Part shown: in pieces, positions 24,308 to 48,875 of the stretch
How positions within the stretch are numbered: position 1 is the stretch's first letter
Layout: the number at the start of each line of letters is the position of its first letter
Origin: a virus
Virus record (IMG/VR): IMGVR_UViG_3300010367_000056
Coordinates: 64,001 to 125,012 of that record
DNA length: 61,012 bases
Direction: 5' to 3' (one strand)
The notes under the pieces: generated by a model
What the model saw: only the letters and a program-made list of their open reading frames with translations
The model's database searches: none
Told to the model about the DNA's origin: nothing
Made by a program: the position numbers and the translations under genes

Positions 24308-24310
24308 TAT

Positions 24311-27300: not shown

Positions 27301-30300
27301 CTTTGATGGAGCTGGTAATTTAGATGCTCAATTTGGATCTATTATTAATGGTAAATTAGCTATAAATAGAAATAACTCGATTTTAAGTGAATTAACTAAT
27401 ACTATATTAAGTAACCTTGATAACTCACTAAATGAGTTTGTTGATCTAGCAATTGAAGAAAAAGCTACTTTGGAGGGCTCTAATATAGCTGATATGTATA
27501 ATAAAATTAGAAGTTCATATCTTAATCAATATCATTTAACTGATTCTGAACTAACAGTTTTAAGAGGTGTTTATTTAACAGCTCAAACAGACTTATCTGA
27601 ATTTAGATCTGGTCAAAATTTTGTACAACAAAGAGAAGTTTTAAAGAAAGCTTTATCAAGCTATTATTTAAACTCTTTTGTTAATGGATTCTTCATGAAC
27701 CAAATATCTAGTGGAGCTACACAGAATTATAAGAATCCTTTAGATGAAATTAAACGTCAAGCTGGTGTAAATGCCATGAATGATACTGGTCTTATAGACA
27801 ACAAACATGGTATGAAGAATAGCTATAAAAATATTGTAATAGCTGCTGCAAATAACTTTTATGGAGCTTCTCACAGATTTGCTAATATTCCTTTATTAGA
27901 AAGATTCTTCAAAAATAAAAAACAAGAAGTAGGTGATGCTCAATCATGGGATATTCCTGAATATAAAGGAATGCTTAGGAAATCTTTTGGTAAATCTGTT
28001 GATATTGGTGTAATTACTAAAGATGTACACTTTGAAGTAAATAATGATGGTTTTGTAGATTATCGTAAAACATCTTCTGCTGAACTTACTAATGAACTTG
28101 TTAAAAATAATAAAACACTAAGAGATCTTAGGTATGCTTTAACATTTCAACCTTATTTAGAGTCTCTTTCTACAGAGGAGAGAGAAGCTGCAAAAGAAAG
28201 AATTGATTATCTATATAATAAACTTGTAGACAATAATGATCTTGATAATGTAGATGAGTTTATGGAATATCAAGATATTCTTCAAGACATTGATGATAAA
28301 GACTTAATGATTCATAAAGCTTCATTTGAGTCTGCTATTAAAGGTAGTAAACCTTCAAGAATGTCTCAGTTTATAAAAAATCAAGAAACAGGAACATTTG
28401 ATTTTGTTCTTGAACCTTCTAGTGTAATAACATTAAATTCGGCTTATAATGGTATTCAACAAGCTATAAGACATAGATATATAGATTCATTCATAACTCA
28501 CTTTACTCAACTTACCTATTTGATAGGTCTTAATAGAACTGAAACATCTATTAAGAATAATAAAGCAATTACTAGAGCCTTAGCTAAGTTTGCTAAATCT
28601 GGTATGTTTGATACTTTATTTGATATGAGAATGGCTTACTCTGAAGAAGGATTACTTAAAGCTAATAATAGAAGTAAGAAAGAGTTTATTAAAGAATTAG
28701 TTAAGAAGTTAGATCTTCCTGGTAATGAAAGGATTGTAGAATTACTCAATACTCCAAGAATCTCAATGAATAATCCATTATTCTCTGAGAAACTTATGCA
28801 AACATTCTTTAATTCATTTACTAAATCAACTGTTAAACCTAAACACCCAGGTGGATCATTTGTACTTCAATCTGAATTTGGATTTGAAGCTAATAGAATT
28901 ATATCTGAGAATTCAATGAGAATTCCAGAACTTGTAACTGATGATCAAGGGAACTTACTATATGCAGAGTGTTATTTACCAGAAATGTACTCTGATCAAA
29001 TTAAAGCTGGTGAGATGGTATATTACAATTCAGAACATTACAATAAAATGTTTGGATTTCGTATTCCCTCATCTGATTTACATTCCTCTGTACCATTGAA
29101 AGTGATAGGATATTATCCTTCTTCAATGCATGATAATGTAGTTGTAATACCTTCTGCTGTTACTGCATTACATGGATCTGACTTTGACGTAGATAAATTG
29201 TTTGTTGTTAGATATGGTGTATTTGGTCAAGATGATGAAGATATAGATCCTAAAAGTCCAGATCAAAATCCTGAACAACCAGATGTAAAGAGAGAGTATA
29301 AAACTAAATTTCAAACTAGTAATAGTGTCATTGCTCAAAAAGGAGTTAAATTTGGTTATGTAGCTCCTGATGCTACTTATAATGATAGAGGAAACTTAAC
29401 TTCCTTTGGCCCTGATGATAGACATACAGAAATATTTAATATAGATTCTGTTCTATTAGATGAAAAGAAGAAAACTCAGGATAGAATTATACAACAAGAA
29501 GTTGCTATAACAGAACATGATAAAACTCCTACTGCTAATAGAGCACAAGAAAATGCAAAAGCAGCAAGAAGAAGAGAGCTAGTAAATGAGCAAAAGAGTC
29601 TTGAAAAGCACTTAGATACTCTTAAAACTATTCAAAGAGGTCTTTATTCTAATCAAATATTAGATGCTGTCCTAGATAATATTTCCTATTCAGGTCAAAA
29701 TGCTGAAGACATTCTTTTTGGTATTACATTCGATCCTGTAAAAGGATATGAGGAAACCTCCGAGTATTCAGAATTAGCCAGAGTATTCTCTGATATTAAT
29801 AGAGCTAAAGGTTCAGAGGATCTTTTACCAGAAAGACCTACTCTTTACACAACTCTTCAACAAGCACAAGATGCTGATGCTGAATTATATACTAAGATTA
29901 AAGAAAATCTTGAAAATAATTTAGGAGTTGATACTACAACTCAACAAGGTCAGACAGACTTATTGGCACTTATTAATGATGAATTAAAAGATGACTGGAT
30001 CTCAGATAGAGATGAATTTATAAGAAGACAAAGAGGAGCTGGTTCAGTTAATATTAATAAAGTTGAACAACATGTAACTGTTCACAAAGAAACCTATATG
30101 GCTGCTGGTCTGGTAGGTTTAATTGCAAACTTTTCAAAAGGTCTTGCATATGCATTTCATGGTATTACTAATAACGCTAATCATATTGAATTAGATATTC
30201 CAGAAAATTCAGTAGTAGAATTAGATGGTCAAAAGTTTGATAAACTTACTCTCTCTAATAGAGATGGTATTAAGAATCAGGAACTTAGATCACTAGCTCT

Positions 30301-33076
30301 TAATGCTGCCATTGACCACGTAAAAGAACAAATCTTAAACGTACTCAATGTTGGTAATAAGACAGCTAAAATATTCCTAGCTGCAATCTCTACTGAGATG
30401 AACTTACATCAGTCTACTATGATTCTCTTGCAACCTGTAGCTAAAGAATTAAATAGTTCTAATGCTACTACTGTAAGAAATACTTTAGCTTCTATGAGAG
30501 ACAAGATTGCTGAGAAGTTAAATGAAATACAAAGACCTTACTCAGATCAAGAACTTCAAGAATTAAAAATCACTACAAGAGATCTTGAAAGACATGTTCA
30601 AACTAGTTTCACAGATGTAATGGCTGATAGTAATAATCCAGCTTATAGAAGAAACTTAATGATTCAACTTAAGGTAATTGAGCAGTTAAGAACCTTAGAT
30701 CAAATTGGTCAAGAAATATCTGACGTTTCAAGAGTATTATCTGTAATTCAAGAACTTCCATATAACTTAGAAGCAGCATATGAGAAATTAAAAGATTTAA
30801 ATAACTATATAGATGTAGAAAAATTCTTCAATAAACTCACATACCAAGAAAGAAGTGAATACACTCAGAATGGATTTAAGAATGATCTTAGATCTAATAA
30901 AAATATCTTAGCAAATGTAAATTTAGCTAACAATGAAAATGTACTTGCAGCTCTTGAAGCTATTAAAGTTCAAGTAGATGTTGCTTCTGAGATGTTCACT
31001 GAGAATTCAATTCAAATGCAGTATTTAGTTCAGAATATACTTAAAGCAATAACTAATAATTCTGAACCTGGTACTATGTTTACTGGTGAACATGATATTA
31101 ATGTAAGTTTTGATACAACTAGAACATTTCCCATACAAGGGAAGTATTTAAAAGGAAAAGATACATTTAATATGGTTAAGATGATCTCAAGAAACATCTT
31201 TAATCTTTTAACTTCAGGATTAAATGTAGGATATAATAATGATAATCACTTATTCTCATTAGCTATAAATACTCAAGAATTACAAACATTTAGTGATGGT
31301 GATCAACAATTCACTTTAACTGCTGTAAGATCATATATTAATGCTTTCTTAATGAAAGAAGGTGAAGCCATATCAGGAAGAAATTATGATGGAGATTCCT
31401 TTGTAGTATCTCAAATAAATCCTGATTGGAGATTAAAACCTTTAGCTATAATTAAAAGAGAAAATCCTAATAATAAATTTTTGAGAGGATTAGGTATTGA
31501 TACTAACTTTAGAGATAAGGTAAGAATCATGACATATGATGTTTCAACTGCTAACACTGCTGAAAATTTAGCTGAAGTTGAACAAGGCGTAAATGAGTTA
31601 AATACTCTGAGAAATATTTATGTAAAACAAGATAAAAATGGTAACTGGATAGATGTTCCTTCAAATGAACATCCTGAGACTCCAGAAATGAATGAAATTA
31701 CATTTAACATCTTAAAAGCTTCTTTATATATTGATAAGTTTAAATTCTCAATGTCAAGAGCTACGAATGTAATTCCTCCTAAATACTTCCAAAAGATATT
31801 TTTATCTTTAGAGACTTTAGTAAAAGACTTAATATATTATCAGAAATCAACTCAAGGTAATAAATATTATAAAGACTTTACAGATCTTGATAATCAAACT
31901 AATAGTACATCAGCTTTAGGAAATATTAAAGAAAACTTATTTGTAAATACTATTTTTAGTGTACCAACAGTACTTCCTAATTTAAGAACCGTACTTCCTA
32001 ATTCAAGAGAAAGATGGAGACATTTACATAGACAAGCTGGTATTTTGCCAAATGGTAATGTGTATGATCTTTATTTTGATGCTAGTGTTTTAGATCAACA
32101 ACAGGAACAACCTGAAGTACAAGCAGAAACTACAATTCAGGCTTCTGAAATCTTAAATGAAGAAAATACCAATGTAGAGACAGATCAAGATACTGCTGAA
32201 TCTGAAGCCGAAACTAGTTTGAGTGAAAAACTTAGAAAAAATCCTTCTTTTATTGTTGATGAGAATCCTAGAAAATTAGGTACATTTGAGATATATATGA
32301 AGGTTGGTACAACTGGTTCTAAGGAAACAAATGATCAGAAGTACTTCTATAAGAAGATTTCAGTAGTTAATGGTAAACTAACTAATAACTCATTTGATCT
32401 CAACTTATTATTAAATAGATATAGAATATCTGATTATTTCAATCCTAAAAGATTAGCAATTGGAGTTAAAAACGTAGACTTTACTGGTAACAGAGTCACT
32501 TTACCTAATATCACCATTAGTAGTTTCTTAGTAAATGCTTATGATGATAGAAGAACTCAAGAACAAGAAAGAGCACAGATTGATCAAGCAGTTGAAGCTC
32601 AATTTGAAGCAAGGAAAGCAATGCCTGAAAATGCTAATAAAAGTGATGCTCAAATAAGATCAGAAATTAGAACAAAACTTAATGTTCAAAACGTAATAAA
32701 TTCATTAAATGAGGTATCTTTGTATGACGCTCGTAACATGGATAGGATTGGAATTAAACATTTCAAAGTACTCTCCAGATCAATTTCTGAAGATAAAAGA
32801 TCTGTATCCTTTACACTCGAAGCATTACCAATTAGTCAACAAATAACTTATAATAAGTTTGATGCTCCATTAGAACTATTAAAAACAGTAAGAAAAGGAG
32901 AAATGACTAGGGAAGAAAGAATAGCTTATATCAACTCTATACCTGGAGCTAAGAAAATAACCTCAGCAGTAGCTGCTACTATGACTGATGCTCAGATAGA
33001 TGAAGAATTTGATAGAGCAACAGAAATTGAGGAAACTAAAGAGATAGATCAGGTTTTAAAAGATAAAAGTTGTTAA
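24311..33076 (+). CDS. Putative virion RNA polymerase with N-terminal zincin
   Basis: 2,921 residues. Near the N-terminus lies HEIFH (137-141) with a candidate third ligand at Glu177/178 (EDLEEAMANSF), as in gluzincin-like peptidases. Residues 1624-1628 read DFDVD within HGSDFDVDKLFVV. This fits the metal-binding DxDxD signature of the crAss-like virion RNA polymerase, which belongs to the double-psi beta-barrel polymerases related to cellular RNAP and eukaryotic RdRP; most relatives have Gly where this has Val. A second, perhaps accidental, NYDGD is at 2358-2362. An acidic linker (about 2595-2640) separates a C-terminal domain. It starts four bases after the helicase gene. Known relatives transcribe early phage genes after ejection. 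Confidence 0.75.
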   Translation: MSCVNINSPQYKSLIKGMSPREKFVAKGVMSRFMSENEGRMPDFIELKSAIADLYNTNKGGVDYKTFYNEVKDIFKSLLPGMSEAELDQRVKFVDKLELMRLRDGKEVLTSFINDVVYIAKSLPEERGEKAYTDIRHEIFHVIFNNFLSEDEQIKMVETFKRWKPEYAKTMGKEDLEEAMANSFEHYRTSPKKTIPIMIRDFFVDLLKFFGLIGDNYVDIKKLFDDVESGKFTRNYLKDSLVTRDKTILSKYTEFSTNLDLFLQAKAFVLNNLNELMFPENNTQLSEVGNSNLFLNQNYNTALFQNNKELFKLGLTKNDALKQLQRRIRDLSSGRTTDAQLTNVLSVLSKNHILKDMFEYLQPYSIAKVNANGELVLEDQVEEDPTEELLETSEDYNSLEIGSKELINPITKISEVVKDFLSSVTYETTPGNFINIDPGAGFISLLNMLGHLYGNQSVEDNLNSLNRNYSESVRGVQTTAVYNKLRELHENLIGSNRIVINIQGVSAEDLNTIRQTLGQFGIQHETFRDNMTLIVPDNMKIENHGTNNVDNKVVFTLNRFKDGLESFKIEQGARESNKTFIEKVANETGLPSFVVAKLFKYNEQRNQLAELTKVAGSLRKLSPKFVRVQTTRTSVEGFTQTTTSYAFLNKVNEYRSSGSMASVIRDRLDLIPSRQDVIGSMRAYPRLKERGNRQELRNLLQDVLINKLNAISPSDFQRIPSRGNEVTTMLDTLERIMNIPEMSTEKATEEFTDSDVFLRQTSNFSNLLNKYTFEKNNPTSFSVSTSNKQKWENVMSNSSFKLFKNLKDFAAGLRGVKLLGYLGNSFNNYLRFNPLFDHNFNTGEVDVNRTLLKVMDEDFYADHQETYFDNRTSAYAKPPVPFAKESPRDWINRNFLAMFQLPILETQQASEGERTGQAYYQQKFQPESAPNVSVVKMGIHGSNSIQNAIAYMILQEAYMHHLAGGSVRGNIVKNTKKSLLPGLEGSTYFIREGRNIFFDGAGNLDAQFGSIINGKLAINRNNSILSELTNTILSNLDNSLNEFVDLAIEEKATLEGSNIADMYNKIRSSYLNQYHLTDSELTVLRGVYLTAQTDLSEFRSGQNFVQQREVLKKALSSYYLNSFVNGFFMNQISSGATQNYKNPLDEIKRQAGVNAMNDTGLIDNKHGMKNSYKNIVIAAANNFYGASHRFANIPLLERFFKNKKQEVGDAQSWDIPEYKGMLRKSFGKSVDIGVITKDVHFEVNNDGFVDYRKTSSAELTNELVKNNKTLRDLRYALTFQPYLESLSTEEREAAKERIDYLYNKLVDNNDLDNVDEFMEYQDILQDIDDKDLMIHKASFESAIKGSKPSRMSQFIKNQETGTFDFVLEPSSVITLNSAYNGIQQAIRHRYIDSFITHFTQLTYLIGLNRTETSIKNNKAITRALAKFAKSGMFDTLFDMRMAYSEEGLLKANNRSKKEFIKELVKKLDLPGNERIVELLNTPRISMNNPLFSEKLMQTFFNSFTKSTVKPKHPGGSFVLQSEFGFEANRIISENSMRIPELVTDDQGNLLYAECYLPEMYSDQIKAGEMVYYNSEHYNKMFGFRIPSSDLHSSVPLKVIGYYPSSMHDNVVVIPSAVTALHGSDFDVDKLFVVRYGVFGQDDEDIDPKSPDQNPEQPDVKREYKTKFQTSNSVIAQKGVKFGYVAPDATYNDRGNLTSFGPDDRHTEIFNIDSVLLDEKKKTQDRIIQQEVAITEHDKTPTANRAQENAKAARRRELVNEQKSLEKHLDTLKTIQRGLYSNQILDAVLDNISYSGQNAEDILFGITFDPVKGYEETSEYSELARVFSDINRAKGSEDLLPERPTLYTTLQQAQDADAELYTKIKENLENNLGVDTTTQQGQTDLLALINDELKDDWISDRDEFIRRQRGAGSVNINKVEQHVTVHKETYMAAGLVGLIANFSKGLAYAFHGITNNANHIELDIPENSVVELDGQKFDKLTLSNRDGIKNQELRSLALNAAIDHVKEQILNVLNVGNKTAKIFLAAISTEMNLHQSTMILLQPVAKELNSSNATTVRNTLASMRDKIAEKLNEIQRPYSDQELQELKITTRDLERHVQTSFTDVMADSNNPAYRRNLMIQLKVIEQLRTLDQIGQEISDVSRVLSVIQELPYNLEAAYEKLKDLNNYIDVEKFFNKLTYQERSEYTQNGFKNDLRSNKNILANVNLANNENVLAALEAIKVQVDVASEMFTENSIQMQYLVQNILKAITNNSEPGTMFTGEHDINVSFDTTRTFPIQGKYLKGKDTFNMVKMISRNIFNLLTSGLNVGYNNDNHLFSLAINTQELQTFSDGDQQFTLTAVRSYINAFLMKEGEAISGRNYDGDSFVVSQINPDWRLKPLAIIKRENPNNKFLRGLGIDTNFRDKVRIMTYDVSTANTAENLAEVEQGVNELNTLRNIYVKQDKNGNWIDVPSNEHPETPEMNEITFNILKASLYIDKFKFSMSRATNVIPPKYFQKIFLSLETLVKDLIYYQKSTQGNKYYKDFTDLDNQTNSTSALGNIKENLFVNTIFSVPTVLPNLRTVLPNSRERWRHLHRQAGILPNGNVYDLYFDASVLDQQQEQPEVQAETTIQASEILNEENTNVETDQDTAESEAETSLSEKLRKNPSFIVDENPRKLGTFEIYMKVGTTGSKETNDQKYFYKKISVVNGKLTNNSFDLNLLLNRYRISDYFNPKRLAIGVKNVDFTGNRVTLPNITISSFLVNAYDDRRTQEQERAQIDQAVEAQFEARKAMPENANKSDAQIRSEIRTKLNVQNVINSLNEVSLYDARNMDRIGIKHFKVLSRSISEDKRSVSFTLEALPISQQITYNKFDAPLELLKTVRKGEMTREERIAYINSIPGAKKITSAVAATMTDAQIDEEFDRATEIEETKEIDQVLKDKSC

Positions 33077-38010: not shown

Positions 38011-38325
38011 ATGCTAATTAAAATATTCAAATATCTTGAGAATTTATGGACTGGAAAAGATGGAAGACCTTCTAAAAGAAGTGTTCTTGCCATAATTTTC
38101 TCTATAAACTTTCTTCAAAATATAACTTATGCTGTCCATAAGTGGGATGCAAATAAGTCTTTGGATGGATTAGCCTTAACTCTTAGCGTTGAAGCTGGAC
38201 TAATCATGGCACTTCTTGGCTTAAAAGCTTGGGAAAATGTAAACTCACTTAGAAGAAATAGGTTTGATAATCAACCTTTTAATGGCTTTGATGATGGTAA
38301 GGGACAGATAGAAGAAGTAAAATAA
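38011..38325 (+). CDS. Small two-helix membrane protein, lysis region
   Basis: 104 residues with two hydrophobic segments (about 28-46 and 56-76), a basic N-terminus and a polar tail. The size, topology and position two genes before a holin-like protein and upstream of the lysozyme point to a holin, antiholin or accessory lysis protein. The ATG directly abuts a 14-bp hairpin arm, so translation is probably sensitive to RNA folding. No in-frame ATG lies nearby downstream. Confidence 0.6.
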   Translation: MLIKIFKYLENLWTGKDGRPSKRSVLAIIFSINFLQNITYAVHKWDANKSLDGLALTLSVEAGLIMALLGLKAWENVNSLRRNRFDNQPFNGFDDGKGQIEEVK

Positions 38326-38354
38326 TCCATTAACTATCAAACTCGAAGCATGAG

Positions 38355-38696
38355 ATGAGGAATGACATCTTTAATTTCTTAGACGGTTTAGGTCTCGTCT
38401 GGAAATATATGATCAATGGTCTTGTTGGGGGCTTTATATGGTCTCTGTATAAGAAAGCAAAATTTTGGGAAGCTCTTAGACAGATTATTATAGGTGGCTT
38501 TGTATCAGGTTATTTTAGTCCAGTAATAGTGACTAAATATCACATGGATTTGTCGCTTATAGGTTTTACATCCTTCATTATTGGGATGCTTGGAATGGTA
38601 ATTATAGATTCTGCTTATAAATATGTAGCAGGAAATTACAAGAAATGGAGTCTAATATTAAAGATTCTTTTTTCAAAAGAAGAAACAAAAAACTAA
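38355..38696 (+). CDS. Putative holin
   Basis: 113 residues with hydrophobic helices near 18-32 (MINGLVGGFIWSLY), 44-60 (IIIGGFVSGYFSPVI) and 68-88 (IGFTSFIIGMLGMVII), followed by a lysine-rich cytoplasmic-type tail. The pattern of several short membrane helices with a charged C-terminus and the genomic setting (membrane protein cluster, spanin-like protein, lysozyme) fit a holin that forms membrane lesions to release the endolysin. The ATG at 38355 is preferred; the ATG at 38350 runs into a stop after two codons. Confidence 0.6.
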   Translation: MRNDIFNFLDGLGLVWKYMINGLVGGFIWSLYKKAKFWEALRQIIIGGFVSGYFSPVIVTKYHMDLSLIGFTSFIIGMLGMVIIDSAYKYVAGNYKKWSLILKILFSKEETKN

Positions 38697-38700
38697 TAAA

Positions 38701-38919
38701 ATGAAAGTAATCAATTTTGTAAAAAGGTATTGGCGAGCAATTTTATTTGTGCTTTTTGAAGTATCTATGCTGGTTTTAGCAATTGGTGGCATTGGCTGGA
38801 CTGATTATGCTGAAACTAAATTCTGGCAAACAGCTTGGATTGTTCTTGCAGTCTTAGGTGTAATTGGTTTTGTTGCTGGTATGAAATGGCTAGATAATCA
38901 GAAAAATGCAGATTTCTAA
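38701..38919 (+). CDS. Small two-helix membrane protein
   Basis: 72 residues, with a basic N-terminus (MKVINFVKRYWR) followed by two hydrophobic helices (about 12-30 and 44-64). It sits four bases after the putative holin gene. Its stop shares a base with the ATG of the next membrane protein (TAATG), so the two are likely translationally coupled. It may be an antiholin or holin partner; no family-specific motif was recognised. Confidence 0.55.
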   Translation: MKVINFVKRYWRAILFVLFEVSMLVLAIGGIGWTDYAETKFWQTAWIVLAVLGVIGFVAGMKWLDNQKNADF

Positions 38920-39317
38920 TGCTATTGGCAGAAGCTCTTTTAATTATAGCAATCTTATTTCTTGCAGGAAAAGATGCTTCTTCTTACCTGTTAAAGGATA
39001 AGACTCCTAATAACCAGGAACTTACACTAAAGAGAATACAGAGATGGCATAGAGATGGAGTTGCACTCTATCTTCTATATATAATTCCTCTATTATTTTT
39101 AGAAAATCCCTGGCTAATATTATCTTATGCTCTTTTAATTAGACTTGCAATTTTTGATATTGCATTTAACTATTGGGCTGAATTAGATCCTAAATTTCTT
39201 GGATCAACATCAAAAGTAGATCAATTCTTTGCAAGATTATTTGGTCAAAATGGTGCTATAAAGAAATCAGCAATCTTTTTAATTATATTATTGCTGCTGA
39301 ACTTAATATTCATATAA
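38919..39317 (+). CDS. Multi-pass membrane protein in lysis cassette
   Basis: 132 residues with hydrophobic segments near 2-18, 50-77 and 116-132, and a polar loop (DPKFLGSTSKVDQFFARL) between the last two. It is coupled to the upstream gene by a TAATG overlap. It is the last of four consecutive small membrane proteins before a rho-independent terminator. I do not recognise the family; accessory lysis or membrane remodelling is the simplest guess. Confidence 0.55.
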   Translation: MLLAEALLIIAILFLAGKDASSYLLKDKTPNNQELTLKRIQRWHRDGVALYLLYIIPLLFLENPWLILSYALLIRLAIFDIAFNYWAELDPKFLGSTSKVDQFFARLFGQNGAIKKSAIFLIILLLLNLIFI

Positions 39318-39384
39318 TAAATTCAAAGTTATGAAGACATATAGAGGGAATGGAGCCATGAACTCCTAAGCCTTAAAAATGATT

Positions 39385-39418
39385 ACCTGAAGATTTTTCT
39401 TCGGGTTTTCTTGTTTTT
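39385..39418 (+). terminator. Rho-independent terminator
   Basis: Stem ACCTGAAGA (39385-39393) pairs with TCTTCGGGT (39398-39406) with one G-U pair around a TTTT loop, then TTTTC, TTG and TTTTT. This is a classic intrinsic terminator. It separates the membrane protein cluster from the spanin and lysozyme genes, whose transcript may therefore start just upstream of 39439 or arise by read-through. Confidence 0.75.
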
Positions 39419-39438
39419 ATAATTCAAAAACCAATAAT

Positions 39439-40077
39439 ATGAAAGATTTCATAACTAAAAACTTCCAATTCTTAATAGTCATAGCATTATTTTTTGTGCT
39501 GATGATACAGAGATGTGGAAGTGATGGAAAATCAGATATAAATTTTGTAAAGAGGGATACTACAGTAGTTCTTACTTATCACTATTATAAAGATACAGCT
39601 AAGTCAGTACCTACAATTATAAATTTTATTCCTCCTAAACAAACTGATATTCCACCTGCAATGATTCCAGATGGAACATATACAGACTTAAAAAAGAAAT
39701 ACGATTCACTCTTGACTGCTTATTACACAAAAAATATTCAGAAAGATAGTATAAAAGTTGACACTTTTGGCTATGTAAAGACTCTGGATACAGTGAATCA
39801 AAATAGGATAATAGGAAGACAATGGATTTCTAATCTAAAAATACCAGAGAAAACGACTACAATTACTATCACTAAAACTCTACCTTCTAAAACTCAACTA
39901 TTATTAGGTGGTTCTATATCAGGTACTCAAGAGAATCTAATTAATGGAGCTGGAGCTGGCTTCTTAATTATAAATAAGAAACAACAAGCTTATGGAGCTG
40001 ATATAAAACTTATGAACAAAATTGGAGTTGTATATGAAGCTCGTACTTATTGGAACCTTAATAAAATATTTAGATAA
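39439..40077 (+). CDS. Spanin-like membrane-anchored protein
   Basis: 212 residues. One N-terminal membrane helix (about 9-25, FLIVIALFFVLMI) is followed by a Cys at 27 and a long periplasmic-type part rich in T, D, K and Y. A short heptad-like region lies near residues 80-95. The C-terminal third is glycine-containing and beta-rich (LLLGGSISG, GAGAGFLI), which suggests outer-membrane contact. Bacteroidota phages often place such a protein between holin and endolysin, so a single-gene spanin that disrupts the outer membrane is plausible. Its stop overlaps the lysozyme ATG (TAATG). Confidence 0.55.
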   Translation: MKDFITKNFQFLIVIALFFVLMIQRCGSDGKSDINFVKRDTTVVLTYHYYKDTAKSVPTIINFIPPKQTDIPPAMIPDGTYTDLKKKYDSLLTAYYTKNIQKDSIKVDTFGYVKTLDTVNQNRIIGRQWISNLKIPEKTTTITITKTLPSKTQLLLGGSISGTQENLINGAGAGFLIINKKQQAYGADIKLMNKIGVVYEARTYWNLNKIFR

Positions 40078-40517
40078 TGGAAATTAAATCAATGGATCAA
40101 GCAGGAATAAACTTCCTGGTAGGAGAGGAGGGAATTGTATTACACCCTTATTTAGATTCAGTAGGAATTCCTACAATTGGTGTTGGTTGTACTTATTATG
40201 AAGATGGTAATAGAGTAACAATGAGAGATTCTTCTATATCAAAAGATAGAGCTATTTCACTCTTCAAAAATGTTCTTAAAAATTATGAACAAACAGTATG
40301 GTCTCTTACAAGAGATGATATTAATCAAAATCAATTTAACGCTTTAGTTTCAATTTGTTATAATATTGGAGTAAATGGATTTAAAAATTCTACTCTATTA
40401 AGATTAGTAAATAAAAATCCTAAAGATCCTGCAATAGTAGATGCATTTAGAATGTGGAGAAAACCTGCGGTTCTTTTACCAAGAAGAAACAGAGAAGCTA
40501 AACTATACTTTAGTTAA
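40077..40517 (+). CDS. T4-type lysozyme (GH24 endolysin)
   Basis: 146 residues, close to the size of T4 lysozyme. The catalytic triad spacing of T4 (E11, D20, T26) is reproduced exactly as Glu18, Asp27 and Thr33 in the stretch from EEGIVLHPYLDS to VGIPTIGVG. The family motif near NQFNALVSICYNIG is also present. It hydrolyses the MurNAc-GlcNAc bond of peptidoglycan to release progeny. There is no signal peptide, so export must depend on the holin encoded upstream. It is coupled to the spanin-like gene by a one-base overlap. Confidence 0.92.
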   Translation: MEIKSMDQAGINFLVGEEGIVLHPYLDSVGIPTIGVGCTYYEDGNRVTMRDSSISKDRAISLFKNVLKNYEQTVWSLTRDDINQNQFNALVSICYNIGVNGFKNSTLLRLVNKNPKDPAIVDAFRMWRKPAVLLPRRNREAKLYFS

Positions 40518-40531
40518 ACTTATCCAAACCT

Positions 40532-41974
40532 ATGAAAAAAGAAAAAGCCATTGATTATCAGTTTGTAAGACCAATTGAAGTAGGAGCTTCATCAATGAAA
40601 GGTAAAATACCTTTAATAAATCTCTTCAAAGAGTATCTTAAAAGATTAAATGTTGGTTTTTACGATCCTTGTTGTGATAATCCAGCTACATGTCCTCCGA
40701 TATCACAAGATGTTGATAATGTAGTTCAGTGTAAACCAGATGGTTTATATGTAGCATACCAAGATACAGGTGGAGGTGGAAGTGTTAATAGTGTTGGATT
40801 ATCAATGCCCACTCCAGCTTTTAGTGTAACTAACAGCCCAATTACAAATACTGGTACTATTGCAGTTACAATGACAGGTAATAGTTCTCAATATTTAAGA
40901 GGTGATGGTACTTTAGCTAATTTTCCAACTATAGTAAATACATTAGATGAAGTTCTTTCTGAAGGTGGTGAACTTACTACTAATAGACAAATAAATTTAG
41001 GTGCATCAAATTTTAATATTGTCGATACAAATAACAAGGGTTATTTAAGAATCAATCCAGGTAGTGAATTCTCTTTAGGAGACTTAGATTCTACTCAATT
41101 TGGATTTAAGATTAAAATAGAACCTAGATCAATACTTTTAGGTAGTGAAACTTATGCTGCTAACTATATATTCCTAGAAGATATTTTCAGTAGGATTACG
41201 ATAGTTAGTCAGGATATTATAGCAAATGGAAATATCAATGTGATGGGAACTTTTAAATTAACTTCAGGTACATTAGGATCTGGAAAAGTTCTTACCTCTG
41301 ATAGTAGTGGTATAGGTACATGGCAAAGTCCTTCTCCAAATTATTGGACATCAAGTACGACAGGCTGGATAAACAATACTAATACATTTGGTATTGGTAT
41401 TGGAGTTACAAGTCCTAGTGCCTATGTACATATTAAAGCTGGTAATACAACTTATGCACCTTTAAAATTTACTAGTGGTGGCTTACTTGCAGCTCCTGCT
41501 GATGGTGCAATTGAATATGATGGTGTAAATTTATATTTTACAACAGGGATTACTAGAAAAATATTTCCACTTGGAACCACAGACACTACAATCTATACAG
41601 GTGATGGTAATATTGGTGGCCCTAGAACTATTAATGTTCAAAATAATACAATCACTTGGAATAATACTGGTTTGTTCAGAATTGTAGAAGGTGATATGAC
41701 TACTGGTGGAACTTATGACTTTAATGATGGAGTCGATTTCTTAGCTTTTAATGCTACTAATTCAGCTAATTTAGTAATCAACGCAATCAGTGGATTCTCA
41801 ATGGAATACACAGCTCTTGCAGGCCCATCAGTACTAAGCTCAATGGTAGTAAATGCTACTGGTATAAAGCTTACTGGAATTCAGGATTTTGCAGATAATG
41901 CTGCTGCATTAGCAGGTGGTTTAACTGCTGGTTATATTTATAAGACTGGAGATAATCTTAAAATAGTGCACTAA
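40532..41974 (+). CDS. Tail fibre/adhesin paralogue 1
   Basis: 480 residues. The N-terminal 75 residues (from GKIPLINLFKEYLKRLNVG to DPCC, then CPPIS and CKPDGLY) are shared with the fibre gene at 43015 and partly with that at 44616, and probably anchor the protein to the virion. A glycine-rich hinge follows, then beta-rich fibre sequence with VLTSDSSGIGTW. A module near residues 305-350 (APLKFTSGG, then GAIEYDGVNLYF) occurs in all three paralogues. The likely role is host-surface binding. The stop overlaps the ATG of the downstream subtilase (TAATG), so the two are probably made together. Confidence 0.75.
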   Translation: MKKEKAIDYQFVRPIEVGASSMKGKIPLINLFKEYLKRLNVGFYDPCCDNPATCPPISQDVDNVVQCKPDGLYVAYQDTGGGGSVNSVGLSMPTPAFSVTNSPITNTGTIAVTMTGNSSQYLRGDGTLANFPTIVNTLDEVLSEGGELTTNRQINLGASNFNIVDTNNKGYLRINPGSEFSLGDLDSTQFGFKIKIEPRSILLGSETYAANYIFLEDIFSRITIVSQDIIANGNINVMGTFKLTSGTLGSGKVLTSDSSGIGTWQSPSPNYWTSSTTGWINNTNTFGIGIGVTSPSAYVHIKAGNTTYAPLKFTSGGLLAAPADGAIEYDGVNLYFTTGITRKIFPLGTTDTTIYTGDGNIGGPRTINVQNNTITWNNTGLFRIVEGDMTTGGTYDFNDGVDFLAFNATNSANLVINAISGFSMEYTALAGPSVLSSMVVNATGIKLTGIQDFADNAAALAGGLTAGYIYKTGDNLKIVH

Positions 41975-42996
41975 TGAAGAAGAGATATATAGTAGATAAA
42001 GCTGCATTAAGTATTCTAAATATTACTGCTCTTGATGCTCAAACTGAGTTAGGATCTAGTAAAATAATTACAGATGAACCTCTTGAATATAGAAATATTC
42101 CATATGTTAGTTTAATGCTAACTCCTTTTCAAGTTAAGTTATTAATTCATAATGGTTTAAATCCACAAGAAGAAGTTTCTAAACAAGATGTGAGTCTTGC
42201 AGTAGAGAATACTGGTTATGAAAAAATAAGATCTTCATTTTATAAAGCTCAAAGAAGAGCAATTACAGGTAAAGGATGTAAAGTAGGAGTATTAGATTCA
42301 GGATGTAATCAATCAGTTGTTCCCTGGAATTATGCTTATAACTTTATAGATAATAATACTAATGTTACAGATATATTTGGACATGGAACTGAAGTTTGTT
42401 CTATTATAAAACATCCTTTAATAGCATTAGCTCCAGATTGTGAACTTCATTTTCTAAAAGTAATTGATGATGGTGGAGCTGGAAATGAATCAGCAGTTTT
42501 AGCAGCTCTTGATTATGCCATTACTCATAGTTTAGATGTGATTAATTGTTCCTGGCAGTTTGATACTAATGCAATAAGAAGTGCTATGGCTAATGTTGTA
42601 GCTGGAAATACAATAGTCTCAGCAGCCTCTGGAAACTCAAGTGTAGAAACATATACAGTTTCTCCAGCTTGTCTGCCTGGAGTAGTTGCAGTAAATGCAA
42701 TATCATATGATTTCTTTCCAGGATTTAAAAGTATTATTGCTCCTCCTGGAATACCTAACTCTCATGGGGTGACAATAGCTTGTAATGGAGTCTCTTGTCA
42801 ATTATATAATAAAGATGGCAATCGTACAGCTTCTTGGGGAACATCATTCTCAGCTCCATTTTTCGCAGGCACATTTGCTCTTTATAAAGAAATGTTAGGA
42901 ATATCAGATAATAAAAAAGTATTAGAATATATATTAGATAGAGCTAAAAGAAGACAAGAAACAACTTATTATGGTGTAGGATTACCTACATTTTAA
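41974..42996 (+). CDS. Subtilisin-like serine protease (S8 family)
   Basis: 340 residues. The catalytic triad is complete: Asp108 in VGVLDSG, His137 in GHGTEV and Ser291 in GTSFSAP, with oxyanion Asn221 in AASGNSS. About 90 residues precede the catalytic domain. They do not look like a signal peptide and may be a propeptide or virion-docking segment. Subtilases cleave proteins or peptides. Placement between two fibre genes, with the ATG overlapping the stop of the first, suggests processing of fibres or a virion-borne protease acting on host surface proteins; both are inference. It could also be a cell-release factor. Confidence 0.88.
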   Translation: MKKRYIVDKAALSILNITALDAQTELGSSKIITDEPLEYRNIPYVSLMLTPFQVKLLIHNGLNPQEEVSKQDVSLAVENTGYEKIRSSFYKAQRRAITGKGCKVGVLDSGCNQSVVPWNYAYNFIDNNTNVTDIFGHGTEVCSIIKHPLIALAPDCELHFLKVIDDGGAGNESAVLAALDYAITHSLDVINCSWQFDTNAIRSAMANVVAGNTIVSAASGNSSVETYTVSPACLPGVVAVNAISYDFFPGFKSIIAPPGIPNSHGVTIACNGVSCQLYNKDGNRTASWGTSFSAPFFAGTFALYKEMLGISDNKKVLEYILDRAKRRQETTYYGVGLPTF

Positions 42997-43014
42997 ATAT
43001 TAAAATAAAATAAA

Positions 43015-44604
43015 ATGGCTTCAGAAAGATTTATAGATCTTCAACTAATCAAACCCCTTACTAAGGGTAGTGGAATAAAAGGAAAGGTTTCTTTAACAAA
43101 TCTTTTCAAAGAATACTTTAATAAATTAAATGTGGGTTATGTTGATCCATGTTGTCCAGTAGGCTCAGATAATGCTTATGGTTGTCCAGCTATCTCTGAA
43201 GATGATGGCAACTCATTAGAGTGTAGACCAAATGGATTATACTCTGCTGCCACTTTGGCTTCTGGCCCAGGTGGTGCTGATACCAATGTACAATTTAATG
43301 ATGCTGGTACTTTTGGTGGCGTTTCAAATTTTGCTTGGGATAATTCTACTAAAACATTAGGAATAACAAATAATAATGCTGGTCAACAAGCAACAGTATC
43401 ATTACTTAATGATTTAGCTAACTATTTTAGAATCAGAATAACTGGTAGTACTAATTCTACTCCTAATACTGCTATTATGCAGTCTGATAAAGCTATAAAT
43501 GTAAACTCAGCAGTATATATTAATTTAAATTCACCTGGAGTATTTGTTGGAGTAGCTCCTTCATTTCCTTCTGCTAAGATTCATATTGAAGCCAGTTCAG
43601 GTGCTGTAAATACTGCCCCAATAAAACTTACTGCTGGAACTTTAATAACTCTTCCAGAAGCAGGTGCTATAGAGTTTGATGGAACTCACTTTTATGGTTC
43701 TATTGGTTCTACAAGAGTTCAATTAGATAATCTATCTGGTGTAATAACTGCTGCAAATAATGGTATTACAAATACTTCTGGTACTGTAGGATTAGGTGGC
43801 TCTCTTACGAGTTCTCCTACAATTACTGCTGGTTCAAATGTTCTTACTCTTACAGGCACAAGAACCAACTTTAACCAACCTGCTTTACAACTTACTAATA
43901 ATAGTGGTGGAGCTGCATTACAAATAACAGGTACAGGTATTCCTGCTTATATAAATGTCACAGGTGGTGCTGGTAGTTATGGTTTATATATTCAACAATT
44001 AGGTACAAGCCAAAATGCTGATGCTGCTAGATTTGAAGCTTCAGGTAGTGCTAAAGCTCTGGAATTAACTGCAATTGGTGGTACTCCACTTGCTATTTAT
44101 AGTACACCTACTGGTACATTAAATACTGCAACAGAAATAATGAGACTTACTAAAAATACTGTTAGTACTACTGATGGTAATGGTATGTATATTAGCATGT
44201 TTCTTAATTCTTCATCTGGCCCTGGAGGGTTGCCTACTTGTCGATATGAAGGTGTTTTAACAGATTCGAGTGCAGGAGGTCTTGCTACTCAGATGAACTT
44301 CTACACCTACGGTACAAGCTTGGCTACTGGTACTAATAGAGCTGTACTTTCTTTAAAAGGTACTGGTCAAATGCAAACTCCTTTATATGGAGTAGGAACA
44401 TATACAGGTACATATGCTCGTAGCATTGCAGTAGATGCAGTAGGTAATCATATCGAAGTATTATCTCCTGTAATTACTTCAGGTACAGCAGCTCCAGCAA
44501 CAACTCCTGGAAAAGTTGGAGATATTTTTGTTGATACAACTGGTAAAAAAATGTACATTGCTACTGGAAACGCTTCTAGTGCTGATTGGACAATAACTAA
44601 CTAA
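43015..44604 (+). CDS. Tail fibre/adhesin paralogue 2
   Basis: 529 residues. The N-terminal 85 residues closely match the fibre at 40532 (KVSLTNLFKEYFNKLNVGY, VDPCC, CPAIS, CRPNGLY). Then come a Gly/Ala hinge and a long repetitive beta region rich in T, G, S and N. The shared module APIKLTAG then GAIEFDG lies near residues 202-228. The C-terminus has TPGKVGDIFVDTTGKKMYIATG, typical of a fibre tip or trimer-stabilising segment. It follows the subtilase by 18 bases. It probably forms an alternative or accessory receptor-binding fibre. Confidence 0.72.
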   Translation: MASERFIDLQLIKPLTKGSGIKGKVSLTNLFKEYFNKLNVGYVDPCCPVGSDNAYGCPAISEDDGNSLECRPNGLYSAATLASGPGGADTNVQFNDAGTFGGVSNFAWDNSTKTLGITNNNAGQQATVSLLNDLANYFRIRITGSTNSTPNTAIMQSDKAINVNSAVYINLNSPGVFVGVAPSFPSAKIHIEASSGAVNTAPIKLTAGTLITLPEAGAIEFDGTHFYGSIGSTRVQLDNLSGVITAANNGITNTSGTVGLGGSLTSSPTITAGSNVLTLTGTRTNFNQPALQLTNNSGGAALQITGTGIPAYINVTGGAGSYGLYIQQLGTSQNADAARFEASGSAKALELTAIGGTPLAIYSTPTGTLNTATEIMRLTKNTVSTTDGNGMYISMFLNSSSGPGGLPTCRYEGVLTDSSAGGLATQMNFYTYGTSLATGTNRAVLSLKGTGQMQTPLYGVGTYTGTYARSIAVDAVGNHIEVLSPVITSGTAAPATTPGKVGDIFVDTTGKKMYIATGNASSADWTITN

Positions 44605-44615
44605 TATATTATAAC

Positions 44616-45929
44616 ATGGATTTAGTTAATATAATTTTAAAAAATTCAAAGGATATTAAGAATTTGAAAAAGCAGATTTGCTGCATTCAAAATCAATGTC
44701 CTCCTATTTCAGCATCCCCAGGAAATGCGATTACTTGTAATCCTGATGGATTATTCTCCACTGGTGGAGGTGGAGGAGCTGGTTCTGCTTCTAATGGATT
44801 ACATGTGGATAGCCCTGATATCAAATTAGGTGGAAATCTAATAGAGGCTACTACTATTACTGGTAATACAACTACTGAAACATTATTATTTACTGGTGTA
44901 ACTGCAAATACTATTGGAGATACTCAGCCAAATATTGGAAATAGCTTTTTCAGAATAGATAGTACTTATGACTTAACTGCACCAGATCCACAATTTGGAG
45001 TTACATTAGGAGTAAGTGCTCCTGCTGATGGCGCAAGTAATGTAGCTATATATACTCAAGGTGGAGACACTGGTATAATAGTAGATGGTGTAGTACCTGG
45101 TGGAGGTCAATCTGGAGTAGGTATACAAGTACAAGGATTTACTAGTCAAGGTATATTAGTTAATGGAACAGGTAGTTTTATTGCTATACAAGTTTCAGGA
45201 GCTACTACTGGTATTCAAGCATCTGGAAATGCTGGATATGCTGTAAAAGCAGTTAATGGAAACTTTACCACCATTTATTCTGAAACTAATGATGCAGTAT
45301 CATCATATACTTTTCAAGGTATAAAAACAGGTAACTTAAATGTTGGTACTATTGAAACACTAGCTAGTTTTAACAGAAATACTAATGCTGTAGTACCTGC
45401 TAACTCAGCAGTATCCATTGATATTGGTGCTCCTCAAGTAGGAAATACTGGTCTTAAAACTATAAGACTTGTATCAAGAAATGCTAATCAAGCTAATAAT
45501 ACTTCTAAATTTGAAATTTGGGGTCTTAATGCAGGAGTTGAAACTCAATTATTCACAGTTGATGCTTTACTTAATGGTAGAATTGGTATTGGGTCTACTA
45601 TGACTTCACCTACAGCTAGATTACATCTTCCTGCTGGTGCTGCTGGTGCTCAAACAGCTCCTTTGAAATTCAGCTCTGGTACAAGTCAGACAACTCCAGA
45701 AGCTGGAGCAATGGAGTATAATGGTAGTAACTTATTCTTTGTAAGATCTGGTACAACTAGAGAAACAGTATTTACTGGTGTATCTGGTGCTACTGCTCCA
45801 GCTACCACAACAGGTGTAACAATTACAAACTTTTATGGTAGTGCTGCAACTAATTTCTTAGGAGATCCTAACTCATGGGCTTCTGTAGTTATTAATGGTA
45901 CAACCTATAAAGTTCCATTATATACTTAA
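44616..45929 (+). CDS. Tail fibre/adhesin paralogue 3
   Basis: 437 residues. It has a shortened N-terminus: a helical segment (VNIILKNSKDIKNLKKQ) replaces the start seen in the other two paralogues, but ICCIQNQCPPIS and CNPDGLF align with their cysteine motif. A glycine hinge (GGGGGAG) and a beta-rich shaft follow. The shared module APLKFSSG then GAMEYNGSNLFF lies near residues 347-375. The tail WASVVINGTTYKVPLY is aromatic and may be the tip. It is likely part of the same fibre set, perhaps combined with the others in the virion. Confidence 0.7.
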   Translation: MDLVNIILKNSKDIKNLKKQICCIQNQCPPISASPGNAITCNPDGLFSTGGGGGAGSASNGLHVDSPDIKLGGNLIEATTITGNTTTETLLFTGVTANTIGDTQPNIGNSFFRIDSTYDLTAPDPQFGVTLGVSAPADGASNVAIYTQGGDTGIIVDGVVPGGGQSGVGIQVQGFTSQGILVNGTGSFIAIQVSGATTGIQASGNAGYAVKAVNGNFTTIYSETNDAVSSYTFQGIKTGNLNVGTIETLASFNRNTNAVVPANSAVSIDIGAPQVGNTGLKTIRLVSRNANQANNTSKFEIWGLNAGVETQLFTVDALLNGRIGIGSTMTSPTARLHLPAGAAGAQTAPLKFSSGTSQTTPEAGAMEYNGSNLFFVRSGTTRETVFTGVSGATAPATTTGVTITNFYGSAATNFLGDPNSWASVVINGTTYKVPLYT

Positions 45930-46324: not shown

Positions 46325-46954
46325 ATGCCGCAATTCAAACTTGACTGGTTTGCTGCTCCAGTGATGGTTAATCCAAATGCTACAGGTCAAAGAGCCGTTT
46401 ACAGACAAAAATCTGTAGGTGGTTCTTTTATCTCCACTGGCTTTACTCCAGCTAATGATTTATCTATTGTAGCTCAAACTACAACTTCTCCTAATCTCGA
46501 TGCTAATAAAATATGGGAATTTAAAGTACAAGCACTATGTACTTCAGGAGGCCCAACTGATAATAATAATGGTATTATAGAAGCCCTTAAATTTGCTTGT
46601 CTCTTACCTACTTTATCGTCAACTAGTTTTACAGCTACTATACAGCTCAACATTGCAAGTCTTGATATTACAAAAGCAGTATTTTCACTACATTTAGTTA
46701 GTGATGATACTATTGTATATGGCCCAGTTACAGCTACTCCTTTAGGTACTATTATTCAGACTCAGGCTACTGGAATTGACGATGATACTGATTACTATTG
46801 GACTTTTTCTCTTAAATCAACTGTAAATGGAGTTGAAATATCTTCAACAGACTCAACTCAATTAAATCAAGAATGTCAATCAGTAGAATTTAGTACACCT
46901 CCTGATGTATGTTTACCTGTTACTGCAACAACTGCCGTAGCAACAGAATTCTAA
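46325..46954 (+). CDS. Fn3-like virion surface protein
   Basis: 209 residues, beta-rich. The N-terminal half (from FKLDWFAAPVMVNPNATGQR to WEFKVQALC) and C-terminal half (from FTATIQLNI to DDDTDYYWTFSL) each resemble fibronectin type III sandwiches, including the Y-x-W-type strand before the final turn. Cysteines at roughly one per 50 residues may stabilise them. It lies in a row with other adhesins, so surface display and glycan or host adhesion are likely. There is no signal peptide. Confidence 0.6.
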   Translation: MPQFKLDWFAAPVMVNPNATGQRAVYRQKSVGGSFISTGFTPANDLSIVAQTTTSPNLDANKIWEFKVQALCTSGGPTDNNNGIIEALKFACLLPTLSSTSFTATIQLNIASLDITKAVFSLHLVSDDTIVYGPVTATPLGTIIQTQATGIDDDTDYYWTFSLKSTVNGVEISSTDSTQLNQECQSVEFSTPPDVCLPVTATTAVATEF

Positions 46955-46974
46955 TAATATTAAAAATTAATATA

Positions 46975-47997
46975 ATGGCTTATCATTTTACCTTAAGTGG
47001 TATTACGCCTTCAACTCCTCCTGCTGATGGATGGAATGTGGGATATAGAATACTTGGTTCAGGTGGTTCTTATACAACTGCTGGCCCTTTTATGTCTCAA
47101 CCAATTGTTATCCCAACAGCAGATGCTGTAGGTACTTTATATGAAGGGTATATTACTAGAGATTGTGGAACTCTTGTTTCTACTCAATTTTTTTGGCAAA
47201 CTCCTTGTAACTGTGTAGGTGCTGGATATTCTGTAGCTCCTTCTGGAACTCAGTGTCAAAATGTTCAGACTCAAGCTCCTACAATTACCAATCCTGGATA
47301 TTGTTTGGCTACATCTCAAGATGGAGTTTATACTCAATTTGGTTCTAGGATATATAATCCTGGATTTACTACTGCTACCCTTAATTTAAATATGGGTACA
47401 ATAGATTCTAATATTTTTGCCGATTTAACTACTCCAAGTTTATGGGCTAATCCTGGAAGTTCTAGTACTATTGGGCCTCTTAATAGAGAAGGTGTTTGGA
47501 TTGACTCTAACTGTGATGGTACTAAAGATCCATTATCTAGTGGAGTCCAAACTACTGTAGCTTATACATTTAATAATACAGGAGCAACAAGAACAATTTT
47601 TGTGGGAGCTGGAGCTGATAATCAGTTTCAGATAGTAGTGAATGGTGTTCAAGTAGCTGATTCCGATACTACTGGTGTTGATAAGCCATTTAAAATATGG
47701 CATATAATGCCAATAACGGTAGTTCCTGGTGTAAATTTTATCAACTTAGTTGCTACAGGAGATGGATCTGTAAATGATGCTCTTGGTATGATAATATATG
47801 ATAATACAGCTAGTCAAATTCAAGCTGCTGGTAGTGAAGGAGCACTTACTATTCCATTTAGAACATCCTCTTTAAGAGGTACATCTTATAATGTAGCTAC
47901 ATGTCCTACTGGATGGTCTTTAGATACTAGTTCTGGTAATCCTGCTACATGGCAGTGTGTACAAACAACTTATAAATCTTGTAATACTTTATCATAA
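46975..47997 (+). CDS. Fn3 plus carbohydrate-binding-like adhesin
   Basis: 340 residues from the ATG at 46975. An in-frame ATG at 46909 lies inside the upstream gene and adds an implausible cysteine/basic leader, so it was not used. The first 75 residues (GWNVGYRILGSGGSYTTAGPF) form an Fn3-like domain. Residues about 155-290 (REGVWIDS, FVGAGADNQFQIVVNG, FKIWHIMPITVVPG) resemble a jelly-roll carbohydrate-binding or PA14-like sandwich. The protein ends with a cysteine-containing tail. It is probably a virion adhesin binding capsular or surface glycans. The stop overlaps the next ATG (TAATG). Confidence 0.6.
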   Translation: MAYHFTLSGITPSTPPADGWNVGYRILGSGGSYTTAGPFMSQPIVIPTADAVGTLYEGYITRDCGTLVSTQFFWQTPCNCVGAGYSVAPSGTQCQNVQTQAPTITNPGYCLATSQDGVYTQFGSRIYNPGFTTATLNLNMGTIDSNIFADLTTPSLWANPGSSSTIGPLNREGVWIDSNCDGTKDPLSSGVQTTVAYTFNNTGATRTIFVGAGADNQFQIVVNGVQVADSDTTGVDKPFKIWHIMPITVVPGVNFINLVATGDGSVNDALGMIIYDNTASQIQAAGSEGALTIPFRTSSLRGTSYNVATCPTGWSLDTSSGNPATWQCVQTTYKSCNTLS

Positions 47998-48875
47998 TGA
48001 AACTTAGATATTGGTATAAAATTGATCAAAGCAAACAACCTATTCCTGGCTCCAATATTAGGAGAAAATCAAGACCAGGCCCTAACTATCAATGGAAAGA
48101 GATTTTAGATCCTTGCTGCTCTCCACTTGATATCACATGCAGTTGTGGCCCAAGATACTTTATCCAACTTGATGGAAGAGGAAAACCTGTAGACGGTTCT
48201 CTTATTAAGAGAGCTGAAGAAGGTATGCCAGAGGGTACTGATGGCACTAAATTCTATGAACTTCAATGGAAATCGCCATGCTGTGGAGGTATTACATATG
48301 ATTTCTCACTAGGATTCTTAGCTGGCGGCACATTTACTGTCTCTGTAAACGGAGTCTTAAAATTAAGTACAATGACTGCCAAATCAGGTAAAATAGCAGC
48401 TAATAAAGGTGATAGTATTATTGTTAACTTAATACATTCTACTGGAGCAATGGATAATAGTTTAGTACTTACTGGTGGACACACTTTTGTTAGTACTTCT
48501 CAACCAGCTTCATACTCATTTACATGGAATGGTAAAGACACTAATATTGAAGCTAATATTGAAAAACAACCTGATATTATTAGCTGGAACTTTAATGTTG
48601 AAGGTGGTTACAGTGGCTCTGTTCAAATACTTGATAATGCAGATGATGTAACCGGTGGAGTTTTAATAGATCCTAATGGTGGAACGTTTGGATCTGTCGT
48701 AGGTCATACAATTACAGTTCATGTAAATAAATTAGTAGGAGCTTCTACTGCTATCTCAATGGATTTAAGTAATTCTATGATAGACCACCAAGAAGGTACT
48801 AGTCCAGCAACATTTACTTTTGTTTACACAGGTGGTCAACTTACTATGGATATATTTGTTCCTATCCCAGGTTAA
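47997..48875 (+). CDS. Adhesin-type protein with N-terminal tandem repeats
   Basis: 292 residues. Two related units lie at the N-terminus: RYWYKIDQSKQPIPGS ending DPCC (residues 4-41) and RYFIQLDGRGKPVDGS ending SPCC (53-97). Each has aromatic-x-I/L-D, then P-x-x-GS, then a basic segment and a CC pair. The rest (100-292) is Ig- or beta-sandwich-like (FTVSVNGVLKLS, FTFVYTGGQLTMDI). It is coupled to the upstream adhesin. The repeat unit may be a short surface-binding or virion-docking module. The function is inferred from context only. Confidence 0.6.
   Translation: MKLRYWYKIDQSKQPIPGSNIRRKSRPGPNYQWKEILDPCCSPLDITCSCGPRYFIQLDGRGKPVDGSLIKRAEEGMPEGTDGTKFYELQWKSPCCGGITYDFSLGFLAGGTFTVSVNGVLKLSTMTAKSGKIAANKGDSIIVNLIHSTGAMDNSLVLTGGHTFVSTSQPASYSFTWNGKDTNIEANIEKQPDIISWNFNVEGGYSGSVQILDNADDVTGGVLIDPNGGTFGSVVGHTITVHVNKLVGASTAISMDLSNSMIDHQEGTSPATFTFVYTGGQLTMDIFVPIPG

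Follow-up and report, generated by a model that had tools for sequence, protein, structure and literature searches.

The window analysed here, a stretch of 61,012 nucleotides forming part of the 125,012-base virus record IMGVR_UViG_3300010367_000056, encodes a peptidase of family S8 (a subtilase) between two tail-fibre genes. We propose that this protein, hereafter called S8, is a protease associated with the tail or its fibres, which would cut a host-surface protein at adsorption; judging from sequence comparisons, we give this reading a probability of about 0.5. The S8 gene is part of a set, lysozyme–fibre 1–S8–fibre 2 together with fibre 3, which by its pattern of identities is a mobile host-attachment block, exchanged between distant crAss-like lineages. 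Carriage by such a block suggests that S8 works on the bacterial surface and is not a chance passenger. Moreover, its co-transfer in the block and the same fibre–S8–fibre order in Staphylococcus phages support a tie to the fibres.

The S8 gene and its predicted product

The window gene is an intact member of peptidase family S8 and a predicted protease, as an earlier note on this DNA had claimed. The open reading frame (ORF) matches Pfam PF00082 (77.4 bits, E 1.5e-21) and the PHROG protease family phrog_3677 (E 1.2e-38). The residues D108, H137 and S291 form the Asp/His/Ser triad and N221 is the oxyanion Asn, in the subtilisin order, and all four are invariant in an alignment of 34 phage S8 sequences. 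Since open runs reached at most 120 codons when 30 stretches of 12 kb were simulated with similar composition, an ORF of 340 amino acids (aa) is beyond chance. In addition, the comparison with its relative in the record G001 (IMGVR_UViG_3300005563_000030, 125 kb) indicates purifying selection, with 0.20 nonsynonymous (dN) and 0.67 synonymous (dS) substitutions per site by the Nei-Gojobori method.

The catalytic part of S8 is predicted to have the subtilisin fold. An AlphaFold2 model made from 34 sequences reached a predicted local distance difference test score (pLDDT) of 77.8 overall and >90 across most of the catalytic part; a two-sequence input gave 37.6, and the 34-sequence model was used. 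VIA-align superposed residues 78-340 onto mature subtilisin with a Z of 35.8 and a root-mean-square deviation of 2.2 over 254 aligned residues. The N-terminal remainder, of ~75 residues, has the length of a subtilisin propeptide, and its predicted strand-helix-strand-helix order also fits a propeptide (pLDDT ~60-84, with a low-confidence gap at 20-42), while the I9 propeptide family gave no Pfam match at E 0.1. In agreement with the earlier note, direct inspection of the N-terminal sequence, MKKRYIVDKAALSILNITALDAQ, revealed no hydrophobic segment in residues 1-40 that would indicate a signal peptide. S8 thus resembles the subtilisins BPN', subtilisin E and Savinase in the catalytic fold, the triad and the propeptide-length N-terminal part, but these enzymes are secreted via a signal peptide, which S8 lacks.

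The start codon of S8 lies within the stop codon of fibre 1, as had been noted: in TAATG, the TAA (41972-41974) and the ATG (41974-41976) have the A in common. The earlier note took this overlap to suggest that coupled translation makes the protease in proportion to a fibre. However, same-strand neighbours in this genome overlap by one base in 10 of 43 pairs and by four bases in two (12 of 43 together). Because such overlaps are common, the coupling argument is weak in itself, and we rejected it as strong evidence for a dosage relationship.

The phage of the window is crAss-like (Crassvirales), an assignment made in the earlier note and supported by its gene families. The large terminase subunit (TerL), the portal and the major capsid protein (MCP) belong to crAss-like families (phrog_6681, phrog_6547 and phrog_11589), a large-protein block is present, and the phage records matched by TerL (122) and by the portal (135) are mostly crAss-like. 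Consistent with the suggestion that a protease is unusual here, S8 was found in just two of the 84 crAss-like records searched, the window and G001. The G001 protein is the one close relative found in IMG/VR (73-74% identity). Pfam S8 gave no match in 80 records whose TerL is related (many of them fragments), nor in Leptolyngbya phage Lbo-JY46 or in G082, which by TerL (64%) is the closest relative of G001. A tblastn search of INPHARED with S8 matched 64 records, none named crAss-like, although four short 'Bacteriophage sp.' contigs among them could not be assigned. One scan of genome contigs for a bacterial source, made with poor patterns taken from the N-terminal part, found no S8 relative, a negative that is uninformative for that reason.

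Exchange of the block between lineages

The features of the locus are as follows (window coordinates).
38011-40077, plus strand: small genes before the lysozyme, several of them membrane-protein-like (probable lysis and spanin-like genes)
40077-40517, plus strand: T4-type lysozyme (endolysin), first gene of the exchanged block; Pfam Phage_lysozyme, E 4.3e-28
40532-41974, plus strand: fibre 1, 480 aa; N-terminal domain ~1-79 (40532-40768), body from 40769
41974-42996, plus strand: S8 subtilase, 340 aa, 74% identical to G001; propeptide-like N-terminal part ~1-75, catalytic domain ~78-340 with D108/H137/N221/S291
43015-44604, plus strand: fibre 2, 529 aa; N-terminal domain from 43015 to ~43280, then the body
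44616-45929, plus strand: fibre 3, 437 aa, third member of the set, carrying the repeat module
46325-48875, plus strand: three genes shared with G002 (41-62% identity, same order there), right edge of the swapped stretch

The fibre 1, S8 and fibre 2 frames lie where the earlier note had placed them. Its description of two paralogous fibres holds in that fibres flank S8, but there is a third fibre, and fibres 1 and 2 (43% identical over ~115 aa plus a module of ~65 aa) have N-terminal and repeat modules in common rather than being paralogous over their full lengths.

The backbone of the window and the block have different closest relatives. Reciprocal best hits between the backbone and the record G002 (IMGVR_UViG_3300049919_000267, locus L109) are 60-90% identical, including TerL (78%), the portal (76%) and MCP (90%), and the gene order flanking the locus agrees on both sides. 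Between ~39318 and 46324, the window differs from G002, except for a match of 33 residues in the fibre N-terminus; the window lysozyme is not found in G002. Against G001, the backbone proteins are 30% (TerL), 29% (portal) and 26% (MCP) identical, and those of the block 73% (lysozyme), 66% (fibre 1), 74% (S8), 55% (fibre 2) and 70% (fibre 3). G001 also has the lysozyme–fibre 1–S8–fibre 2 order with the identical one-base overlap, and its fibre 3 counterpart lies upstream of its lysis genes. To the left of the block, 38011-39317 is common to G002 and G001, while 39439-40077 is not.

The boundaries of the DNA match to G001 (~73%) fall within the fibre genes. A first stretch extends from 40769 across S8 to 43017, where the ATG of fibre 2 ends, and a second begins at 43281. 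The match thereby skips the N-terminal domains of fibre 1 and fibre 2, which are similar to the G002 fibre (z values of 16.7 and 12.4, respectively); therefore, these N-termini track the particle lineage, while the fibre bodies and S8 track the block. This division matches the tail fibre gp22 of crAss001, which docks via its N-terminal residues (PMC10172136). A chimeric contig, in which the assembly joined a G002-like backbone to a G001-like cassette, would also make the best relative change sharply at both block edges, as it does. However, the cassette DNA is only ~73% identical to G001, the independent G001 contig has the same fibre 1–S8–fibre 2 order, and in two fibre genes a G002-like N-terminus is fused in frame to a G001-like body. 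These two fusions in particular make an assembly artefact very improbable.

The fibre locus in other phages

After G001, the next-best S8 proteins come from Staphylococcus phages of the genus Baoshanvirus (Herelleviridae, Twortvirinae) and from a Staphylococcus-like prophage, L138 (IMGVR_UViG_2826111491_000002). In phiSA_BS1, phiSA_BS2 and Golestan101-M, the S8 protein, annotated as 'extracellular serine protease', likewise has no evident signal peptide and carries an N-terminal part before the catalytic domain. Its gene lies in the tail/baseplate module in phiSA_BS1 and Golestan101-M; as in the window, the ATG overlaps the stop codon of an upstream tail-fibre-type gene by one base, and a further gene of this type follows a few bases downstream, which in phiSA_BS1 matches the C-terminal end of the tail-fibre family phrog_7389. 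The predicted Baoshanvirus proteases differ from the window S8 in their low identity (~24-26%), myovirus baseplate module, Gram-positive host and unrelated fibre families. In L138, the best match outside the crAss-like phages (29%), a BppU_N plus collagen fibre is followed by S8, a phrog_7389 gene, a holin and an amidase; the fibre–S8–fibre order is that of the window, but the fibre families are Gram-positive ones and the holin and amidase lie downstream. In all, S8 stands directly between two tail-fibre genes and overlaps the first in the window, G001 and the locus L143 (one base each) and in L138 (four bases), and most other S8 genes of the compared set are not in this position.

By fold search, S8-like domains were also detected in proteins of cyanophages that carry the annotations baseplate wedge (S-SCSM1, A0A6M2ZHU7) and proximal tail fibre (S-CAM1, A0A1D8KFC6). 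Like S8, these have the predicted fold in a tail context, but the domain is fused into large proteins and the likeness is one of fold only, whereas the window S8 is separate. The tail-spike region of Crassvirales is described as highly variable, and podovirus tailspike depolymerases and Crassvirales tail-spike hydrolases also put an enzyme at the host-attachment locus; these act on polysaccharides within the spike polypeptide, while S8 is a separate protease gene (PMC10136315).

What occupies this position in other crAss-like phages? A survey of the locus, proposed in the earlier note, found S8 in G001, an unrelated predicted metalloprotease in G002 and no recognised protease in G082. The G002 protein, a predicted lipoprotein of 299 residues (L109:12418-13317) in the same slot as S8, has a lipoprotein-like signal (LLFSC), a thrombospondin type 3 repeat and the sequence HEGGHTAGLYHQ with an HExxHxxGxxH motif. 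It weakly resembles Peptidase_M57 (E 0.0047, below the cut-off) and is unrelated to S8. Where its gene ends, it overlaps that of a fibre with both the shared N-terminal domain and the C-terminal tail. Among 40 crAss-like records surveyed for Peptidase_M57, G002 alone gave a match, below the family cut-off; viral contigs scanned with the G002 protein contained no match besides itself, and among phage records only Synechococcus phage S-CRM01 resembles it. In G082, two adjacent paralogous fibres with the repeat module stand without S8 or a recognised protease, and fibres as such therefore need no protease. Two unrelated predicted proteases thus adjoin fibres at this locus, S8 in the window and G001 and the metalloprotease in G002. 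We tentatively suggest, as a possibility that we would not favour at present, that the locus is a swappable 'protease slot', in which unrelated proteases are exchanged along with the fibre bodies that match them. Protease and receptor-binding specificity would then be passed on together, as a pair directed against a surface barrier or receptor made of protein.

Annotated records already contain S8 genes within phage tail modules, so genes of this kind are known. What appears to be new is that they occur in crAss-like phages, that the gene moves together with fibre bodies as one unit, and that an unrelated predicted protease sits at the same locus. The phage surface-clearing enzymes known so far mostly target polysaccharides. 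If our reading is true, the inheritance of a protease as a unit with receptor-binding fibres would suggest that the hosts of these crAss-like phages bear a barrier or receptor made of protein. Moreover, the comparison is a clean natural experiment in fibre modularity, with N-termini following the particle lineage and bodies, lysozyme and protease following the block, and it turns the question of crAss-like fibre function into testable gene pairs. Our literature search found no paper joining crAss-like phages and a subtilase, and 'subtilisin' gave just an unrelated review. The Crassvirales review (PMC10136315) contains neither the word 'protease' nor 'peptidase', and the crAss001 atlas (PMC10172136) lacks 'protease'.

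Function of S8 and alternative explanations

How would S8 reach its substrate? As a pro-subtilisin-like protein that lacks a signal peptide, it would be synthesised in the cytoplasm and would mature by losing its N-terminal part of ~75 residues. The mature protease would then be carried on the tail via a fibre body; since S8 is inherited whole while the fibre N-termini are swapped, attachment is expected through the body and not through the lineage-specific, virion-docking N-terminus. Finally, S8 would cleave a host-surface protein at adsorption, as the protein-barrier counterpart of the tail depolymerases that act on capsules.

Several observations weigh against this proposal. S8 itself has no virion-attachment domain, and the lipoprotein signal of the G002 protease would direct that protein to the envelope of the host instead of the virion. 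The lysozyme also belongs to the block, so the position of S8 suits a role at lysis as well. Furthermore, trees of the S8 core group the Staphylococcus-phage proteins with the window S8 (95/82, and 85/91 after removal of long rows), but this join involves long branches that meet and may be false.

The main rival, which is possible although we doubt it, is that S8 is a lysis-time enzyme: a soluble pro-subtilisin would accumulate in the cytoplasm, be freed when the lysozyme opens the cell, and degrade matrix or surface proteins or leftover receptors, so that the progeny spread without sticking to debris. The missing signal peptide, the lysozyme at the head of the block and the holin and amidase genes just downstream of the fibre–S8–fibre genes in L138 all fit this role, and a predicted surface lipoprotein such as the G002 protease is better suited to envelope or receptor removal than to being carried by the virion. 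The Baoshanvirus S8, in contrast, sits between tail genes, away from the lysis genes. An S8 that trims fibre 1, 2 or 3, or serves as an assembly chaperone-protease, would account for the direct adjacency to fibre 1 and the start/stop overlap with it, kept in G001, and for the weak NCBIfam likeness to QhpE-type and mycosin processing subtilases, which is far below the cut-offs. However, fibres occur without S8 both in G002, where one shares the N-terminal domain and the C-terminal tail, and in G082, where they are paired, which makes the cutting of fibre precursors, an option raised in the earlier note, unlikely; nor is a common cleavage site expected, because the upstream fibres of the Staphylococcus phages belong to unrelated families.

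It is still less probable that S8 acts inside the cell on a host protein, in defence or host takeover, and is merely placed among the fibres. Such a role would agree with the lack of a signal peptide and with the S8 proteins without evident signal that are encoded outside structural modules in Lactococcus phage 949, Bacillus phage Goe3 and L140. The contexts of those genes are different, however, and the window S8 travels with fibre bodies and a lysozyme across lineages. As a separate observation, short S8 proteins that resemble intracellular subtilisins, in that no signal is evident and the start is of the LLPY or VPPH type, are encoded on many IMG/VR contigs (L140, L174, L191 and others); L140, the only such locus whose neighbours were read, has its S8 outside a recognisable tail module.

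Several minor features of the region and its relatives were also recorded. The genes at 38919 and 39439 have no family match in Pfam or PHROG, and a tblastn search of INPHARED phages with fibres 1 and 3 gave no match. The closest named phage, Leptolyngbya phage Lbo-JY46 (PP438436.1; TerL 34%, portal 30%), was recorded from a cyanobacterium; crAss-like phages are known from Bacteroidota, and its host may be a companion bacterium instead. The large-protein block of the window (15824-33076) contains giant ORFs of 2827 and 2921 aa, the first of which aligns with a G002 ORF only across its C-terminal half. G001, G002 and the crAss-like relative G003 each have fibres with a short C-terminal tail of the GLTAGYIYKTGDNLKIVH type, and a possible glycosyltransferase-like gene was spotted by eye amid the fibre genes of G003 (L110:16554-17573).

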